Shown: positions 51,335-58,694 of the stretch, one piece after another
How positions within the stretch are numbered: position 1 is the stretch's first letter
Layout of the letters: every line of letters begins with the position of its first letter
Assembly (NCBI RefSeq): GCF_004099695.1
Contig: NZ_SCHL01000004.1
Span: forward strand, 1-64,000
Length of the DNA: 64,000 nucleotides
Reading direction: 5' to 3'
From: Methanosarcina sp. MSH10X1
GTDB lineage: Archaea; Halobacteriota; Methanosarcinia; Methanosarcinales; Methanosarcinaceae
Program-made: the position numbers and the translations under genes
The notes under the pieces: model-generated
Database searches by the model: none
The model's input: only the letters and a program-made list of their open reading frames with translations
Told to the model about the DNA's origin: nothing

Positions 51335-52165
51335 TTATTCTCTGTAGACTCCATCTCCTGTGATAAGTTTTCCTTCTGCCTGGACCCAACCTCCCTGCGG
51401 ACCTGAAAGCTGGACAGAAATTCTATCACTGTAGTCATTATATTGCCAGCCGTAAATCCACCACTCATTTCGGCCGTCCATCTGGACAAAAATCTGAACC
51501 TCGGCATCAGGAGATGTTTCATAATGTGCATATACCAGGCTTTCGTAATCAAAATATTCGGGATTGATATGCTCAGGTAGAGAAATTACCGGATATTCTT
51601 TGGATTCTCGAAGATTATGTTTAGGCAGGAGCACGGACTCATTGCCAATAGGAAATCTGGTATTAATCAGATGGTCAGCCTTTACAGAGATTCCGAAATC
51701 AATTGGTGTCAGAACCGGGGTCTCTTCCGAATATTCACCGGACTCAATTAACCGCTCTTCTTCCGGAACTTCATCTTCAATATTCTCGGATCCGGGTTCA
51801 GGCTCGGGAACAGCTACAGGAAGAGAATGATAAACCGGTTGAATTTCGGCAGTTTCTATTTTGAACATTAACCCGTACTCGGTATCTTCAAGGTTGAGAT
51901 TCCATTTAGAAGGTTTATTGTAATAATCTCCGTTTATCATTTCCAGTCCGACCTCGGATTCGTTTTCAAAAACCGAAGCCGGCAAATACAAGGTTACATT
52001 TTGCAAGGTGCTGTTGCTCTCTATGGATATGTCGTACTCATAATTGCTCATAAGACTGTCATTGTACATTTCCTCGTTTCGATTTTCCAGATATATTGAA
52101 CCCAGTAAAAGCAAAAAGAGAATAAATAATACAAATCCTCCAAAAATGGTTATCTTTCTGTTCAT
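51335..52165 (-). CDS. Membrane-anchored hypothetical protein
   Basis: Protein of 276 residues with one N-terminal membrane helix (IFGGFVLFILFLLLLGSIYL) acting as anchor and an outside domain rich in beta strands. An acidic Pro/Glu linker (PVAVPEPEPGSENIEDEVPE) sits in the middle. NxS/T sites in the first third suggest glycosylation outside the cell. DEWWIYGW-like and GPQGGWVQAEGKL strands end the protein. No family recognised; similar proteins occur in Methanosarcina. Confidence 0.75.
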   Translation of the reverse strand: MNRKITIFGGFVLFILFLLLLGSIYLENRNEEMYNDSLMSNYEYDISIESNSTLQNVTLYLPASVFENESEVGLEMINGDYYNKPSKWNLNLEDTEYGLMFKIETAEIQPVYHSLPVAVPEPEPGSENIEDEVPEEERLIESGEYSEETPVLTPIDFGISVKADHLINTRFPIGNESVLLPKHNLRESKEYPVISLPEHINPEYFDYESLVYAHYETSPDAEVQIFVQMDGRNEWWIYGWQYNDYSDRISVQLSGPQGGWVQAEGKLITGDGVYRE

Positions 52166-52412
52166 TACAAGTCACTCTTTCAAAAAGATTGAAAACGTCT
52201 ATGTGAGGAATATAATTAAGCTTTACTTAATTTAAACAGAAAGAATAACTCCGAATTTGTTGATAGCATTAAGTGTGCCGCAAAAAGAAACCTAAGTAAC
52301 CGGGATACGTTTTTTACTGGCAATACATTACTCTTTTATCAGTAGAAGATTAGAGTCAAAAAACACTTAGTTTCTTGTAACTTGATAAGGAGCACCAAAT
52401 ATACATTTTTAT

Positions 52413-53555
52413 ATGTGGGAGGAAGAACCGAAGAATCTGGGAACATTAAATCTGTTTTCGCCACCTCCGATGTTGAAAGGCTATATGTATGGAGCGCAGG
52501 AAGCGCGTAAAGCTCGGAACTCAAACAGGCTTTTAGCCATACGCCTTGAAACGAATAAATCATGCAATCTCCGTTGTCGATACTGCTATGCACAGAGCGG
52601 AGATGATTCGGCAAAAATAGCCGATATCAATTCTCTCAAACGCATAGTTTCGGAAGCAAGAGAACTGGGAATCGGGTCTGTGGTCGTAATTGGGGGAGGA
52701 GAGCCGACCCTGTACCCGAAGTTCAGGGATTTAATAGTTTATATCGATTCCCTGGGAATAATCCCTGTAGTGTTTTCTAATACGGTTTTAATGACAGAGG
52801 AGCTTGCAGGATTCCTGTACGAACACAACGCCTCAGTAATGGGAAAGCTGGATTCCCTTAAGCCTGAAGTCCAGGATTACCTGGCAGGAAGGGAAGGGTC
52901 CTCCGAAGAGATCAGAAGAGGGCTTGAAAACCTTCTTAAAGCAGGCTTCTCAAAACCGGCAGGACCTGGAGAACTCCGCCTGGGAGTTTCGTTCGTAAGT
53001 AACAAAATGAACCTGGGAGAAATTGAGGAAATCTGGCACTTCTGCAGGCAAAATAATATCTTTCCCAATATGGAAATTTTAACGCCTACCGGCAGGGCAA
53101 ACGATGAGCTTGGGGATAAGCTTCTGACGGCTGACGAGATAAAGGAATACAAATTAAAACTCCTGGAAATCGACCGGAAATGTTACGGGTACAACTGGCT
53201 GCCCTACACCCCGATTACCGCCAGTGGCTGCCTTCAGCACCTTTACAGCCTGTATATCAACATAGAGGGAAATGTCCGGCCCTGTGCGCCTACGAAACTG
53301 GACGAACATCCTGCGCTCAAAGTTGGCGGGGAATATCCCTATAACATAAATAAAATGAGCCTTCGGGAGATTTATAAATCCGATCTCTTCACATATGTCC
53401 GAAACATCGATAAAGTGCTTGAGGGAAGATGCAAAAATTGCGAACATATTGAAGAGTGCATAGGCTGCCGGGGATACGCCTATAGCGTGGGAGTAAACAA
53501 TGGTGTTGATCCTCTCAAAGCCCTGAGGATGGAGTGCCAGCAATGTTTCAAATAA
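52413..53555 (+). CDS. Radical SAM/SPASM enzyme
   Basis: Protein of 380 residues. The radical SAM motif is KSCNLRCRYCYAQSG (C-x3-C-x2-C), followed by GGGEPTLYPKF (SAM-binding GGE) . The C-terminal SPASM-like domain holds NVRPCAPTKLD, CKNCEHIEECIGCRGYAYS and a final CQQC, enough for one or two extra clusters. Such enzymes modify peptides or small molecules. It opens an operon with an EgtD-like methyltransferase (92 bases) and an arginine-deiminase-like enzyme. ATG 52413 has no close ribosome site; the message may be leaderless. No precursor peptide is visible nearby. Confidence 0.9.
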   Translation: MWEEEPKNLGTLNLFSPPPMLKGYMYGAQEARKARNSNRLLAIRLETNKSCNLRCRYCYAQSGDDSAKIADINSLKRIVSEARELGIGSVVVIGGGEPTLYPKFRDLIVYIDSLGIIPVVFSNTVLMTEELAGFLYEHNASVMGKLDSLKPEVQDYLAGREGSSEEIRRGLENLLKAGFSKPAGPGELRLGVSFVSNKMNLGEIEEIWHFCRQNNIFPNMEILTPTGRANDELGDKLLTADEIKEYKLKLLEIDRKCYGYNWLPYTPITASGCLQHLYSLYINIEGNVRPCAPTKLDEHPALKVGGEYPYNINKMSLREIYKSDLFTYVRNIDKVLEGRCKNCEHIEECIGCRGYAYSVGVNNGVDPLKALRMECQQCFK

Positions 53556-53646
53556 ACGGCAGGAGGGAAAAACCGAACCCAGGCAGTAAGTCGAAAAAAT
53601 GATTTAAGGCATAAGCTGTTGAATAGTTCGGGGAGAAGGTGAGGGA

Positions 53647-54672
53647 TTGAACATTACGGGAAAAGTGGAGTCCAGGCAGGTTTCGGAAAATAGTGAAATT
53701 ATTGTAGTTACCAGCAAAAAGGATATTGAAGAGAAATTCCGTCAATGCCTGAAGAATCATGAACTGCCTGATTATCTTCTGTATACAGGCGCCAGAGGGA
53801 CAAAAAACTGGATGGAGCTTGACAGAGCTGAAACATTTCCTGTAGCCAGGCAGCTTAAAACCCTTCTGGAGAGAAATCTTGAATCAATAATGAGATTCAT
53901 TCCGACAGGTATGAGCTTCGTGAGCGTTGGAGTAGGGGATGGGGAAAAGGAGAAAATTGTTCTCGAGGCACTTGTAAGGAAGAATCTGGCTGAAAATCCG
54001 ACCTCAGGAAAAGTATCGATAAGCTATTACCCTATAGATATAAATGGCGAATTTGTGGATCTTGCCCTTGAGAAGGTTGAGAACCTGCCTGTAGGAAAGA
54101 AAGGAATAGTTGGTTTCATCGAGGACATGGCAACTCTAAAAAAGAACTGGCGCCTCCCGGTTCTCTTTTGCATTCTGGGAAATACTTTTTGCAACTACGA
54201 GCCAGAATTCATTCTTCAGCTTGTCCGTGAAAACCTTGAGCAGGAAGATCTATTTTTCTTCGATGCCAATCTGCTCCCGACTGAAGATCAGGAGGTACGA
54301 GCTGCAAGAAAATCAATACTAGGGGCATACTCGTCAAGAGAGAACGCCCTCTTCAATATGTACCCCCTGCTTCAGTACGGCATGGTTCCTGAAGATTTCG
54401 ATTTTGAGCTTTCGCTTGCAAATGTGAAATCAAGGATAGGGGGAGTATACAGGACCAGGAAGAACCTGTATATCCTGAAAGATACCGAGCTTGCAATCGG
54501 GGCAGAGACCATAAGCTTCAGGAAAGGAGATGTCATCCGCATGGGTTTCACTTATAAGTACACCTATGATCAGATTACAGCTTTTCTGGATATCTGCGGA
54601 TTTGATATCCTCAAGGCTTTCCTGAGTGAAGACCGGACAAATGCTATAATCCTCGCAAAAAAACGCATGTGA
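53647..54672 (+). CDS. EgtD-like (histidine-specific type) methyltransferase
   Basis: Protein of 341 residues of the Methyltransf_33 family that includes EgtD, which trimethylates histidine in ergothioneine synthesis. Parallel features are YTGARGTKNWMELDRAETFP near the N terminus, SVGVGDGEKE (SAM site), CILGNTFCNYEP and FRKGDVIRMGFTYKYTYDQI at the end. The EgtD substrate residues are not all conserved, so the substrate is probably another amino acid or amine. TTG 53647 has AGGTGAGG upstream. Middle gene of the three-gene operon. Confidence 0.85.
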   Translation: MNITGKVESRQVSENSEIIVVTSKKDIEEKFRQCLKNHELPDYLLYTGARGTKNWMELDRAETFPVARQLKTLLERNLESIMRFIPTGMSFVSVGVGDGEKEKIVLEALVRKNLAENPTSGKVSISYYPIDINGEFVDLALEKVENLPVGKKGIVGFIEDMATLKKNWRLPVLFCILGNTFCNYEPEFILQLVRENLEQEDLFFFDANLLPTEDQEVRAARKSILGAYSSRENALFNMYPLLQYGMVPEDFDFELSLANVKSRIGGVYRTRKNLYILKDTELAIGAETISFRKGDVIRMGFTYKYTYDQITAFLDICGFDILKAFLSEDRTNAIILAKKRM

Positions 54673-54703
54673 GAATGATACTGATCAATATGGAGGTTCA
54701 GGT

Positions 54704-55675
54704 ATGGGTTGTGAGATTGGGGATCTGGACAGGGCTGAAAAGGCAGGGGCCGGTATCGATTATGGATGCGATGAACTTACCAGGCTGAAAAGCGTACTTA
54801 TTCATACGCCTGGAGAAGAACTGTCCCTGGTCAACAAGTCGAATTGTAAATACTGGCTTTATGATAAAGTTCCTGATATTTCTGGATATATCAAAGAACA
54901 TAGAAGTTATCAGGAGTTACTGGAATCAAACGGTGTCAAGGTTTATGAGCTTGAAGATTATGTGAACGAAGGTATAAATCTGATAAGAAAAATGCCGAAT
55001 CTGACCTTTCTTCATGATACTGCCGTTATCTCAGGGAAAGGGGCTATTCTCTCGAGAATGCGCCCGCCTGCGCGGGAAAAAGAAGAGGTTGTCGTAAAGG
55101 AAGCCCTGAATAACCTGGGAATTCCCATTCTAAGCGAATTCAATGGAGAACAGGGCTTTTTTGAGGGCTGCCTTCTGCTCTCAAAAGATACGGTATTTGT
55201 AGCTGATACGGAAAGACACACTTACCCTTTTATCCGTGAATTTGTTTCAAATATTCTAGAAGAGTTTAAGGAGGTTATTTACGTCCGGGTTCCCAAAGCC
55301 AGACGATATATGCATCCTGATACTGTTTTCAATCGAATAAGGGAAGACCTTGCTCTTGCTTACCTGCCTGCATTTGAGGAAACCTGCCTGTTTACGAAAG
55401 ATTCAGGAGAAAAAATCGATTTTAAAGCTTTCATGCGGGAGAAAGAGGTGGAAATCATTCCTGTGTCGGACTCCGAGCAAAGTCGCCTCGCCTGTTCTTT
55501 CGTTCCTCTTGAAAGCGGGACTATTTTTCATTACGATACCGCACTTGACCAGAACACTCACAAAACCCTTGGAAATGAAGGTGTTGAAATCATTCCTTTC
55601 CACCCGGATGCCCTGCTTGCAGGAGGAGGGAGTTTGCGCTGCCATACCCTGAGGCTCTGCAGAAGGAAAAATTAA
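54704..55675 (+). CDS. Arginine deiminase/amidinotransferase family protein
   Basis: Protein of 323 residues of the guanidino-group modifying superfamily. LKSVLIHTPGEEL is the usual N-terminal strand, MPNLTFLHDTAVISGKG contains the FxRD-type motif in changed form, RRYMHPDTVFNRI carries the catalytic His, and GGGSLRCHTLRLC the nucleophilic Cys. It could act on free arginine, methylated arginine or an arginine-derived metabolite. It follows the EgtD-like gene by 31 bases with GGAGG upstream, so the methylated product and the guanidino enzyme are likely in one pathway. Confidence 0.88.
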   Translation: MGCEIGDLDRAEKAGAGIDYGCDELTRLKSVLIHTPGEELSLVNKSNCKYWLYDKVPDISGYIKEHRSYQELLESNGVKVYELEDYVNEGINLIRKMPNLTFLHDTAVISGKGAILSRMRPPAREKEEVVVKEALNNLGIPILSEFNGEQGFFEGCLLLSKDTVFVADTERHTYPFIREFVSNILEEFKEVIYVRVPKARRYMHPDTVFNRIREDLALAYLPAFEETCLFTKDSGEKIDFKAFMREKEVEIIPVSDSEQSRLACSFVPLESGTIFHYDTALDQNTHKTLGNEGVEIIPFHPDALLAGGGSLRCHTLRLCRRKN

Positions 55676-55758
55676 GTTTTAGGGGAAGAAACCGTAAGAG
55701 AGCCAGATAAAAAGCAGAAAGTGCCAGAATAGAGCAAGGAAGATAGGTTGGTAGAGGG

Positions 55759-56652
55759 TTAGAAAAGGGAATCAAGAATGATCGAGGCAGAATAGGTCAC
55801 GAGTGAAACATGATAAAGGAAAAGTACAAACAAGCCAGTCTGCTGATTTCTCACCCTGAAGAGATTATAGTTTGCATATCCGAGCACCAGAAACCCTGAA
55901 ATGAAACCGTAGAATGCGATATCTCCAAGCTGTTTTAAAAAAAGAAATGCTGTGAAATAATGCACAAGCGTAAAACCCAGGATCCAGAATAAAGTTCCTT
56001 CAGTGCCGTAAAGTACCGGAATTGACTTTATTCCTCTGGCCCTGTCGTTCTCAGTATCAATGAAATCGTTGACTGCAAGGTGTGCGAGCGTCCAGGGATA
56101 AAAAAAGAGTATATAGAGAAGTACGGTCATATCAGGCTGCCCGTAACAGAGGTATCCTGCTACCGGGAAAAGTGTGAAATCCATCCTGCCTGCAAGCTGG
56201 GCGACAGGAAAACTCTGGTTCTTCCTTTTAACCTGATAGAAGTATTCAAGAATACATGACGAGAGCATTGTCCCGAACACATAAAGTGAGTTCGGATAAG
56301 GCAAAGTAGACATTACGAGTCCCGTGAGCCCGGAAAGCAGTAAAAAAACTGCCAGGGCAAAGTTAGGGGAGATCCTTCCAGACGGAAGCGGTCGGCTTTT
56401 AAAGGGCCTCCAGTAAGCTGTGAGAGAGCTTTCAACGTCAAGCCTGTCCTTTTTCCGGTCGACATAATCATTAAGTACAAGCCCACCTTCAAATCCGAAG
56501 AAACCGATCAGGATAGCTTTTAAGGTTACCGGCAGGGAAAAGCTTCCATAGTTATTAAAAGCAAGTGCAAGGCCTGAAGAGAAAAGCAAAATCCAGACAA
56601 GGAAGAAGTGAGCTCTTGTCAGATCTACCAAGGCTTTAATGGTTTCTCTCGT
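55759..56652 (-). CDS. UbiA family prenyltransferase, copy 1 (ACG in start position)
   Basis: Membrane-bound aromatic/lipid prenyltransferase with about eight or nine segments. The two Asp-rich motifs are LNDYVDRKKDRLDVE and VNDFIDTENDRARG, which bind prenyl diphosphate via Mg. It is a tandem paralogue of the next gene. Aligned to that paralogue (MIETLKAY), the coding sequence continues upstream as RETIKALVDL, and the position of its Met is an ACG at 56650-56652, five bases after GGGGGAG. The only ordinary start is TTG 56631 without ribosome site. UbiA enzymes make quinones, heme A, archaeal lipids or other prenylated compounds. Confidence 0.9.
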   Translation of the reverse strand, partial: TRETIKALVDLTRAHFFLVWILLFSSGLALAFNNYGSFSLPVTLKAILIGFFGFEGGLVLNDYVDRKKDRLDVESSLTAYWRPFKSRPLPSGRISPNFALAVFLLLSGLTGLVMSTLPYPNSLYVFGTMLSSCILEYFYQVKRKNQSFPVAQLAGRMDFTLFPVAGYLCYGQPDMTVLLYILFFYPWTLAHLAVNDFIDTENDRARGIKSIPVLYGTEGTLFWILGFTLVHYFTAFLFLKQLGDIAFYGFISGFLVLGYANYNLFRVRNQQTGLFVLFLYHVSLVTYSASIILDSLF

Positions 56653-56869
56653 ACCCTCTCCCCCGCTTAATATAAAAGATTATTATATGCTTATACTTTT
56701 TGTAAAGGAATAAAAGCAACAAACCGGGTTCAGAGAAGTAAAGCAGAATAAAAGACTGAGAAAAGCCGAAAAAGAATCGAGGGAAATGAAAGGAGGCTGA
56801 AAAAGAGAAGCAAAGAGAAAGAAGAAAACATCAGACATTCTCTCAATTAAATACAGCTATTTTTCCGGT

Positions 56870-57763
56870 TCAGTATATAAAGTCAAGAATTATCGAAACT
56901 GCATAGATAACAAGAGTTCCGTGGAAAAGGGGAAGTACCTTCAAGCCGGCTGCCGGACTTTTTTCTTTCCAGAGATAGAGATTCGATCCTGTAAGAAGTA
57001 TAAACCCTGCTATAAAACCATAAAGGGCAATATTTCCAAGTTCCTTCACAAAGACAGCTCCTGCAAGGAAATGCAGGACTGTAAAGCCTGTAATCCAGTA
57101 CATCGTCCCTTTTTCGCCATAGAGTACGGTTATGGATTTCATACCCCTTGCCCGGTCATTTTTCAGGTCTATAAAGTCGTTTAATCCAAGGTGCGCCATT
57201 GTCCAGGGATAGAAAAAGACAATATAGAGAAGTACTGTCATGTCAGGCTGCCCATAGCAGAGATAGCCTGCTGCCGGAAAAAGGGTAAAATCCGTCCTGC
57301 CCAGAAGCTGTGCGATCGGGTATTTCTGGTCTCTTTTTTTCACCTGATAGAAAGCTTCGATGCCGTACGAGTACAGCATGATTGCGAAAACGTAGAGCGA
57401 ATTAGGATAGGGGAGCGTGAAGATGAGGACAGAAGCAATCCCGGCAAGCAGGATAAATAGCAGGAAGGCACTTTTTGAAGAGAGCTTTCCTGAAGGAATG
57501 GGGCGGCTTTTAAAAGGTCTCCAGTATCGCGTAAGCGTATTCTCGACATCAAGCCTGTCCCTTTTCCGGTCGACATAGTCGTTAAGCACGAAGCCAGCTT
57601 CGAAGCCAAAGAGGCCTATCAGGGCAGCTTTAATCGTCAGCGCCCAGGAAAAGCCGCCGTAATTTGCAAAAGCAAGCACCAGCCCCGAGCAGAAGATCAG
57701 GGGCCATGCCGGAAGAAAATGCGCACGTATAAGGTCAAAGTAGGCTTTCAGGGTTTCTATCAT
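56870..57763 (-). CDS. UbiA family prenyltransferase, copy 2
   Basis: Protein of 297 residues, about 60 percent identical by eye to copy 1. Asp-rich motifs LNDYVDRKRDRLDVE and LNDFIDLKNDRARG are intact, and WRPFKSRPIPSGK is shared. GAGG lies 8 bases before ATG 57763. The two copies are separated by about 217 bases of AT-rich DNA and may act on different acceptors. In Methanosarcina, methanophenazine carries an ether-linked prenyl chain whose attaching enzyme is not established; these are candidates, not proof. Confidence 0.93.
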   Translation of the reverse strand: MIETLKAYFDLIRAHFLPAWPLIFCSGLVLAFANYGGFSWALTIKAALIGLFGFEAGFVLNDYVDRKRDRLDVENTLTRYWRPFKSRPIPSGKLSSKSAFLLFILLAGIASVLIFTLPYPNSLYVFAIMLYSYGIEAFYQVKKRDQKYPIAQLLGRTDFTLFPAAGYLCYGQPDMTVLLYIVFFYPWTMAHLGLNDFIDLKNDRARGMKSITVLYGEKGTMYWITGFTVLHFLAGAVFVKELGNIALYGFIAGFILLTGSNLYLWKEKSPAAGLKVLPLFHGTLVIYAVSIILDFIY

Positions 57764-58235: not shown

Positions 58236-58694
58236 TTAAGCAGTTTCTTCTGCAGCTTCTTCTTCGGCTGGAGCTTCTTCTTCAGCTGGAGCTTCTTCTT
58301 CGGCTGGAGCTTCTTCTTCAGCTGGAGCTTCTTCTTCAGCTACAGGCTCTTCTTCAGCTACTGCAACTGTTTCTTCAGGTGCGTCTGCAATTGCTTCTTC
58401 AGGTGCTTCTGCATCTGCAGCTACTTCTTCTTCAGGTGCAGCTACTTCTTCTTCAGGTGCAGCTACTTCTTCTTCAGGTGCAGCTTCTTCTTCGACAGCT
58501 TCTTCTACTGGAGCTTCTTCAACTGCAACTTCTTCTTCAGCTGCATCGTCTGCTACTGGAGTTGCTGCTTCGTCAGTCACTTCTTCTGCGGCTCCCTCTT
58601 CTGCTTCTGGCTCAGCCTGTTCAGCACAGCCAGCTGCAAAAACAACTGTGGCAATAACAAGGAGCATTGCCATAATCTTTAACATTTTTTTCAT
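58236..58694 (-). CDS. Glu/Ala/Pro-rich repeat lipoprotein
   Basis: Exported lipoprotein of 152 residues: a signal peptide ends in the lipobox FAAGC, and the mature part is nearly all Glu, Ala, Pro and Val. It contains three copies of APEEEVA (21-bp DNA repeats, 58420-58482) and five copies of an AEEEAP-like unit (18-bp repeats, 58255-58344). No fold is expected; it is a highly acidic surface chain. Repeat number is likely to vary between strains. The terminator downstream and the ATG at 58694 support a real, separately transcribed gene. Confidence 0.85.
   Translation of the reverse strand: MKKMLKIMAMLLVIATVVFAAGCAEQAEPEAEEGAAEEVTDEAATPVADDAAEEEVAVEEAPVEEAVEEEAAPEEEVAAPEEEVAAPEEEVAADAEAPEEAIADAPEETVAVAEEEPVAEEEAPAEEEAPAEEEAPAEEEAPAEEEAAEETA

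Follow-up and report, generated by a model that had tools for sequence, protein, structure and literature searches.

Our analysis describes an operon of three enzyme genes in Methanosarcina sp. MSH10X1, found in a 64,000-nucleotide stretch of contig NZ_SCHL01000004.1 (the window; source genome G000, 3,558,779 bases in 55 contigs). The operon encodes a radical SAM/SPASM enzyme, a protein with the fold of the methyltransferase EgtD (EgtD-like) and a protein of the arginine deiminase type (ADI-like). We propose, with a probability of about 0.5, that this trio works as a biosynthetic operon whose product is a small molecule with an alpha-amino acid as its scaffold. The genes are separated by spacers of 91 nt (radical SAM/EgtD-like) and 31 nt (EgtD-like/ADI-like), and their order is identical in the complete loci of three sister genera. 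An original prediction, made from the sequence of the window, had placed these three tightly spaced genes in one cluster with two prenyltransferase (UbiA) genes that face them. On comparison across genomes the trio holds together, as a real operon that is inherited and lost largely as a unit, while UbiA occurs independently of it. The prediction knew of no pathway with this combination of enzymes; we likewise found none, and a literature search returned no paper on the trio operon.

The sample comprised 237 genomes of the class, of which 36 belong to the sister genera g1 (taken as Methanosarcina), g4 and g5, and 201 to others; counts of the trio combine family and class searches with locus tables. 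All three genes are complete in 24 of the 36 genomes, a set that includes six genomes with amber codons, one (G094) in which a contig end cuts the ADI-like gene and one (G099) with an insert in the EgtD-like frame. The trio is partial or decayed in eight (G009, G076, G082, G092, G096, G098, G100 and G102; in G092 through a contig end) and wholly missing from four (G083, G090, G091 and G097; the G090 genome is 73% complete). The ADI-like protein was detected in 29 of 237 genomes, all within the three genera (0/201 elsewhere). The radical SAM protein was matched in 35 of 237 at an E value of 1e-20, with 29 matches in the three genera and six elsewhere at 29-30% identity. Matches to the EgtD-like protein occur in 61 of 111 genomes of the family; 32 are clear orthologs in g1, g4 and g5, some of them broken or partial, with at least 52% identity at the tabulated loci, and 29 are matches in other genera at 22-26%. 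Over 392 genomes of the phylum, an EgtD-like profile gave 18 matches, all in g1 and g5, and an ADI profile gave 17 in the same genera; nine more matches were partial, scored no higher than 50 bits and sit in frames of 408-462 residues, the length of classical ADI. A contig search with the ADI-like protein returned eight loci, all Methanosarcina, and viral contigs gave no match. A tblastn search of plasmids found no EgtD-like protein and 26 records with ADI-family proteins; an EgtD-like gene and a radical SAM gene are both absent from the annotation of the three such neighbourhoods inspected (Kozakia, Haladaptatus and Thermomicrobium). The trio is thus confined to three genera within the phylum sample, with bacteria covered by the plasmid search and one pattern-based contig scan. 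All three genes are under strong purifying selection: ratios of nonsynonymous to synonymous substitution (dN/dS) between nearest neighbors, computed by the Nei-Gojobori method on sets that exclude copies with internal stops, are 0.09-0.21 for the EgtD-like gene, 0.05-0.18 for the ADI-like gene and 0.05-0.12 for the radical SAM gene. Given the same order in three genera and dN/dS values of 0.05-0.21, the arrangement is therefore not due to chance.

The EgtD-like enzyme (METHYLTRANSFERASE; PF10017, 8.2e-25) gave an AlphaFold2 model with a predicted local distance difference test (pLDDT) score of 81 and a predicted template modeling score of 0.82. A Foldseek search with this model returned EgtD in all of its best 15 rows. 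In the VIA comparison it aligned with 4uy6 over 300 residues (chain 2-322) with a Z score of 32.3 and a root-mean-square deviation of 2.6, and the next fold other than EgtD was AzeJ (Z 17.6). As modeled, the protein shows the EgtD fold in full, with the substrate domain included. The name given to it by the original prediction is justified as to fold, but probably not as to substrate: the protein reaches 50.4 bits on the NCBIfam EgtD model TIGR03438, against a cut-off of 290.9, whereas a protein of the related genus g11 (locus L059) scores 353.7, and identity to EgtD and EanA in structural alignments is 16-17%. Residues of EgtD were mapped through the true EgtD of L059 and then with MAFFT, in alignments of about 16-24% identity on which these positions rest. 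Tyr39, Gly161 and Asn166 correspond to Y46, G178 and N183, which are invariant in 20 orthologs. The pocket positions are replaced: Tyr56 by T63, Met252 by G266 (Ala, Gly, Pro or Thr among orthologs), Glu282 by G300 and Ser284 by T302, the last two again invariant in 20 orthologs. PDB entry 4pip bears the title 'EgtD-M252V,E282A in complex with tryptophan'; as this variant was crystallized with tryptophan, loss of both side chains therefore opens the pocket. Sequence motifs drawn from structures are described by Seebeck's group as reliable predictors of histidine specificity (PMC9516567). Since the histidine-selecting residues are lost and the TIGR03438 score is low, we reject a role in ergothioneine synthesis; histidine is an unlikely substrate, and the enzyme would most likely methylate, at the alpha-nitrogen, an amino acid bulkier than histidine. 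Its best NCBIfam match is the model of EasF (69.1 bits, far under the cut-off of 205.6), the 4-dimethylallyltryptophan N-methyltransferase of fungal ergot alkaloids. In both enzymes the side-chain pocket appears to be opened, but no dimethylallyltryptophan pathway is present here.

The radical SAM enzyme matches PF04055 (8.5e-20) and the SPASM family PF13186 (4.1e-7), both over cut-off. In addition to its CxxxCxxC motif it has eight further cysteines (273, 291, 340, 343, 349, 352, 375 and 378), all invariant in 18 sequences, which fit a full SPASM domain. It shares the radical SAM core and SPASM cysteines with NirJ2, AhbD and the mycofactocin and tungsten-enzyme maturases, but its best NCBIfam match, NirJ2, reaches only 88.6 bits against a cut-off of 500, and its orthologs within the class are found only in the three genera. 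A search with PADLOC gave weak generic viperin matches only. The complete SPASM domain, and the presence of peptide maturases among the best NCBIfam matches (all far under cut-off), would suit a system whose target is a ribosomal peptide, or a protein, encoded elsewhere: the SPASM enzyme would modify it, its arginines would be converted by the ADI-like enzyme, and the EgtD-like enzyme would methylate a released amino acid or an N-terminus. We consider such a system unlikely. The original prediction had seen no precursor peptide between the genes, which is borne out here: the window spacers hold no plus-strand open reading frame of at least 15 codons and none is conserved in the upstream regions checked, these being the places searched for precursors. 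The radical SAM protein has no Pfam match to an RRE or PqqD domain, a result that concerns domains of this protein and not stand-alone RREs encoded elsewhere, which were not searched. Moreover, the ADI-like protein keeps the residues that we take to bind free arginine in ADI, and enzymes of the EgtD fold act on free amino acids.

The radical SAM gene has an amber codon in frame in several genomes. In the window, codon 80 (52650-52652) is TCG; among 21 copies this codon encodes serine (TCG, TCA or TCC) in 11, and is TTG in one, TAG in five (G088, G079, G077, G089 and UBA293; loci L002, L003, L007, L056 and L057) and CAG in four (G103, G099, G078 and G101). The dN/dS 3' of codon 80 in pairs that bear TAG is 0.07-0.10, like that of other pairs, and PylS scores over cut-off in 12 of 12 genomes examined. 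Purifying selection continues past the TAG and the gene is therefore read through, with the amber codon probably read as pyrrolysine. The codons TCG, TAG and CAG form a two-step path, in which amber may have been a stepping stone between serine and glutamine; a tree of the radical SAM copies gave no order of the codon-80 states. A dispensable pyrrolysine in Thg1 of M. acetivorans, as reported in PMC2933860, offers a precedent. Amber codons also occur near the N-terminus of EgtD-like copies (G087, G080, G102, G089 and UBA293), at codon 11 (L006, L010 and L042) or codons 24-29 (L011, L056 and L057), in a poorly conserved stretch after the TTG start.

The ADI-like enzyme (PF02274, 1.2e-26) shares its catalytic and arginine-binding residues with ArcA, DDAH and ArgZ-type enzymes. 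Alignment to 1lxy maps N155, D161, R180, E213, R232, H269, D271 and C398 to N99, D105, R124, E154, R171, H204, D206 and C313; all eight residues are the same as in 1lxy and do not vary among 20 orthologs. It differs from ArcA in that the ADI helical domain of about 75 residues, which lies between the two aligned stretches, is missing, and it scores 105.4 bits on TIGR01078 against a cut-off of 489.1. It is the sole PF02274 protein of the genome, in which the search for the carbamate kinase arcC gave two weak TIGR00746 matches, neither over cut-off; it is therefore not an enzyme of arginine fermentation, a role that the TIGR01078 score also led us to reject. The loss of the helical domain and the retention of the catalytic and arginine-binding residues might instead point to an amidinotransferase, as might the GGD that follows the catalytic glutamate in ADI, which here reads G-C with an invariant Cys156. 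Such an enzyme would move the amidine of arginine to the amine of the methylated or radical SAM-modified amino acid and yield a guanidino compound. We regard this as doubtful, since the Pfam, NCBIfam and PDB lists place the sequence nearer to ADI.

Our preferred model of a small-molecule pathway combines these activities as follows. The EgtD-fold enzyme would methylate the alpha-nitrogen of an amino acid other than histidine. The ADI-type enzyme would turn its Cys-His-Asp/Glu machinery on arginine in free form or on a compound like it: the guanidine could be cleaved, so that the side chain becomes ureido or ornithine, or its amidine could be handed to a different amine. A difficult C-H bond change would fall to the radical SAM/SPASM enzyme, which probably has two auxiliary Fe-S clusters. 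The product is likely to be an alpha-N-methylated (betaine-type) non-protein amino acid, which would be derived from arginine or made with its use. We tentatively suggest, at rather less than even odds, that an anaerobic pathway confined to Methanosarcina and its two sister genera makes a previously unseen arginine-linked amino acid of the betaine type, which could be an osmolyte, cofactor or signal. The suggestion that this pathway runs through a non-histidine EgtD-fold enzyme, a deiminase or amidinotransferase without the helical domain and a SPASM radical enzyme is equally tentative.

A number of points weigh against this model. While the operon, its conservation, the folds or families and the active-site residues are observed, the substrates, the product and the working of the three enzymes in one pathway are predictions. 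The roles of the mapped EgtD residues other than Met252 and Glu282 are those that we take these residues to have, as are the catalytic and free-arginine-binding roles of the ADI residues, and the AlphaFold2 model of the ADI-like protein is too poor for use (pLDDT 47). SPASM enzymes act mostly on peptides. Finally, the EgtD-like frame is kept without the other two genes in four genomes (G082, G096, G098 and G100), which could mean that it has a role of its own. Remnants of those genes are seen: the start of an ADI-like gene 3' of it in G082 (read from downstream DNA), radical SAM and ADI-like fragments in G096 and a radical SAM fragment in G100. These four copies show 11 private substitutions of 53 at otherwise invariant columns; for 24 other copies the figure is 35 of 352, a difference that makes for a weak test (Fisher p 0.033). 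The left-over copies suggest that the whole unit is decaying, and the remnants and the excess of private changes at invariant sites make an independent role of the EgtD-like protein less likely.

The twin UbiA genes (PF01040, 1.9e-33 and 3.9e-31) are convergent with the trio and adjoin it in three genera. NF009511, the family to which they belong, occurs in 34 of the 36 genomes of g1, g4 and g5 and in 5 of the 201 others (39 of 237 in all), and a second copy is the minority state. This proximity, together with the presence of UbiA in 23 of 24 trio-complete genomes, could mean that all five genes lead to one prenylated product; an amino acid linked to a lipid would be one example, a contribution to methanophenazine synthesis another. 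Methanophenazine biosynthesis is called unsolved, and UbiA genes are suggested for it, in PMC6315138. The two sets of genes are separable, which makes a common product improbable: G103 has a complete trio and no UbiA; G083, G091 and G097, three of the four genomes that lack every trio gene, do have UbiA, as do five g11 genomes, likewise without the trio; and UbiA and trio lie about 162 kb apart in G080, 132 kb apart in G102 and on separate contigs in G005. The link to methanophenazine is rejected on the same grounds and because NF009511, present in 4 of the 39 genera of the class, is too narrowly spread. Because they are separable in distribution and position, we judge the UbiA genes to be neighbors with their own history, not pathway partners, contrary to the place that the original prediction gave them. 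Genes for a polar amino-acid ABC transporter lie behind the second UbiA gene in G006, G008 and G083; they directly follow it in some Methanosarcina and g5 genomes (L127:11021-12422 and L133:9080-10481), with relatives in G075, a fragment in G097 and none in the window.

That ordinary EgtD-dependent ergothioneine synthesis and arginine deiminase catabolism lie side by side by chance is very improbable, for although the family names PF10017 and PF02274 and the true EgtD with rhodanese and SufS in g11 would allow it, the low TIGR03438 and TIGR01078 scores, the lost histidine pocket, the lack of an arcC over cut-off and the gene order fixed in three genera all stand against it. The trio operon also differs from EgtD and EanA systems in its partners, which are the radical SAM and ADI-like enzymes and not EgtB, a rhodanese or MES. 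In g11, distant homologues of the radical SAM and EgtD-like genes lie a few kb apart (G046 and G058). In locus L059 (8299-15512) of this genus, the one read gene by gene, the EgtD is a true one and lies with genes for rhodanese, SufS and SufE (EanAB-like); UbiA and a geranylgeranyl reductase follow, and after them a radical SAM gene of the SPASM type. Because the EgtD there is a true one with these partners, and the radical SAM gene follows UbiA and the reductase, we rejected this cluster as a relative of the trio and treat it as a different system. The presence of eanA and eanB in Methanohalophilus is already known (PMC11993508).

Methanosarcina are the best-studied methanogens, yet a conserved operon of three enzymes in them, present for example in G075, appears to lack an assigned function. 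If our model holds, three things would be gained: a metabolite not known before, a substrate that is new for the EgtD fold and used by an archaeal member of it, and a pairing, also new, of guanidine chemistry with radical chemistry. All of these can be tested in an organism that is genetically tractable.

Table 1. Features of the trio locus and its convergent neighbors; positions are those of the window.
Feature	Position	Strand	Remarks
Conserved upstream element CACTTAGTTTCTTGTAACTTGATAAGG	52364-52390	+	27 bases; 22 nt 5' of the radical SAM start codon
Radical SAM/SPASM gene	52413-53555	+	380 aa; open reading frame list and Pfam
EgtD-like (EgtD-fold methyltransferase) gene	53647-54672	+	341 aa; TTG start; PF10017
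ADI-like (arginine-deiminase-type) gene	54704-55675	+	323 aa; PF02274
UbiA copy 1 (NF009511)	55759-56631	-	290 aa; 515 bits, cut-off 281; judged a neighbor outside the pathway
UbiA copy 2, UbiA2 (NF009511)	56870-57763	-	297 aa; 581 bits, cut-off 281; judged a neighbor outside the pathway

The five open reading frames were confirmed where the original prediction had placed them. The upstream element CACTTAGTTTCTTGTAACTTGATAAGG is recognizable in 9 of 9 aligned upstream regions, and occurs once in the window and in none of 100 shuffles. Its first 17 bases have no second match in the genome at 0 or 1 mismatch. As the genome holds no second copy, a regulon signal was rejected; the element is likely to be a promoter or leader element of the trio operon. 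An Rfam scan over the window gave no match. The motif GGTGA, which resembles a ribosome-binding site, lies ahead of the EgtD-like gene and its TTG start codon and recurs in most Methanosarcina spacers.

Two further genes flank this region. Divergent from the radical SAM gene is a gene for a membrane-anchored protein without a Pfam family (51335-52165, minus strand; 271-289 residues), which is found 5' of the radical SAM gene in all three genera, yet not in G006 or G075; it is kept without the trio in G083, where it directly adjoins UbiA2 (locus L133). Beyond the UbiA genes, at 58236-58694 on the minus strand, lies a gene whose product, a putative lipoprotein, ends in a long tail of Glu/Ala/Pro repeats and is conserved in its N-terminal part only.

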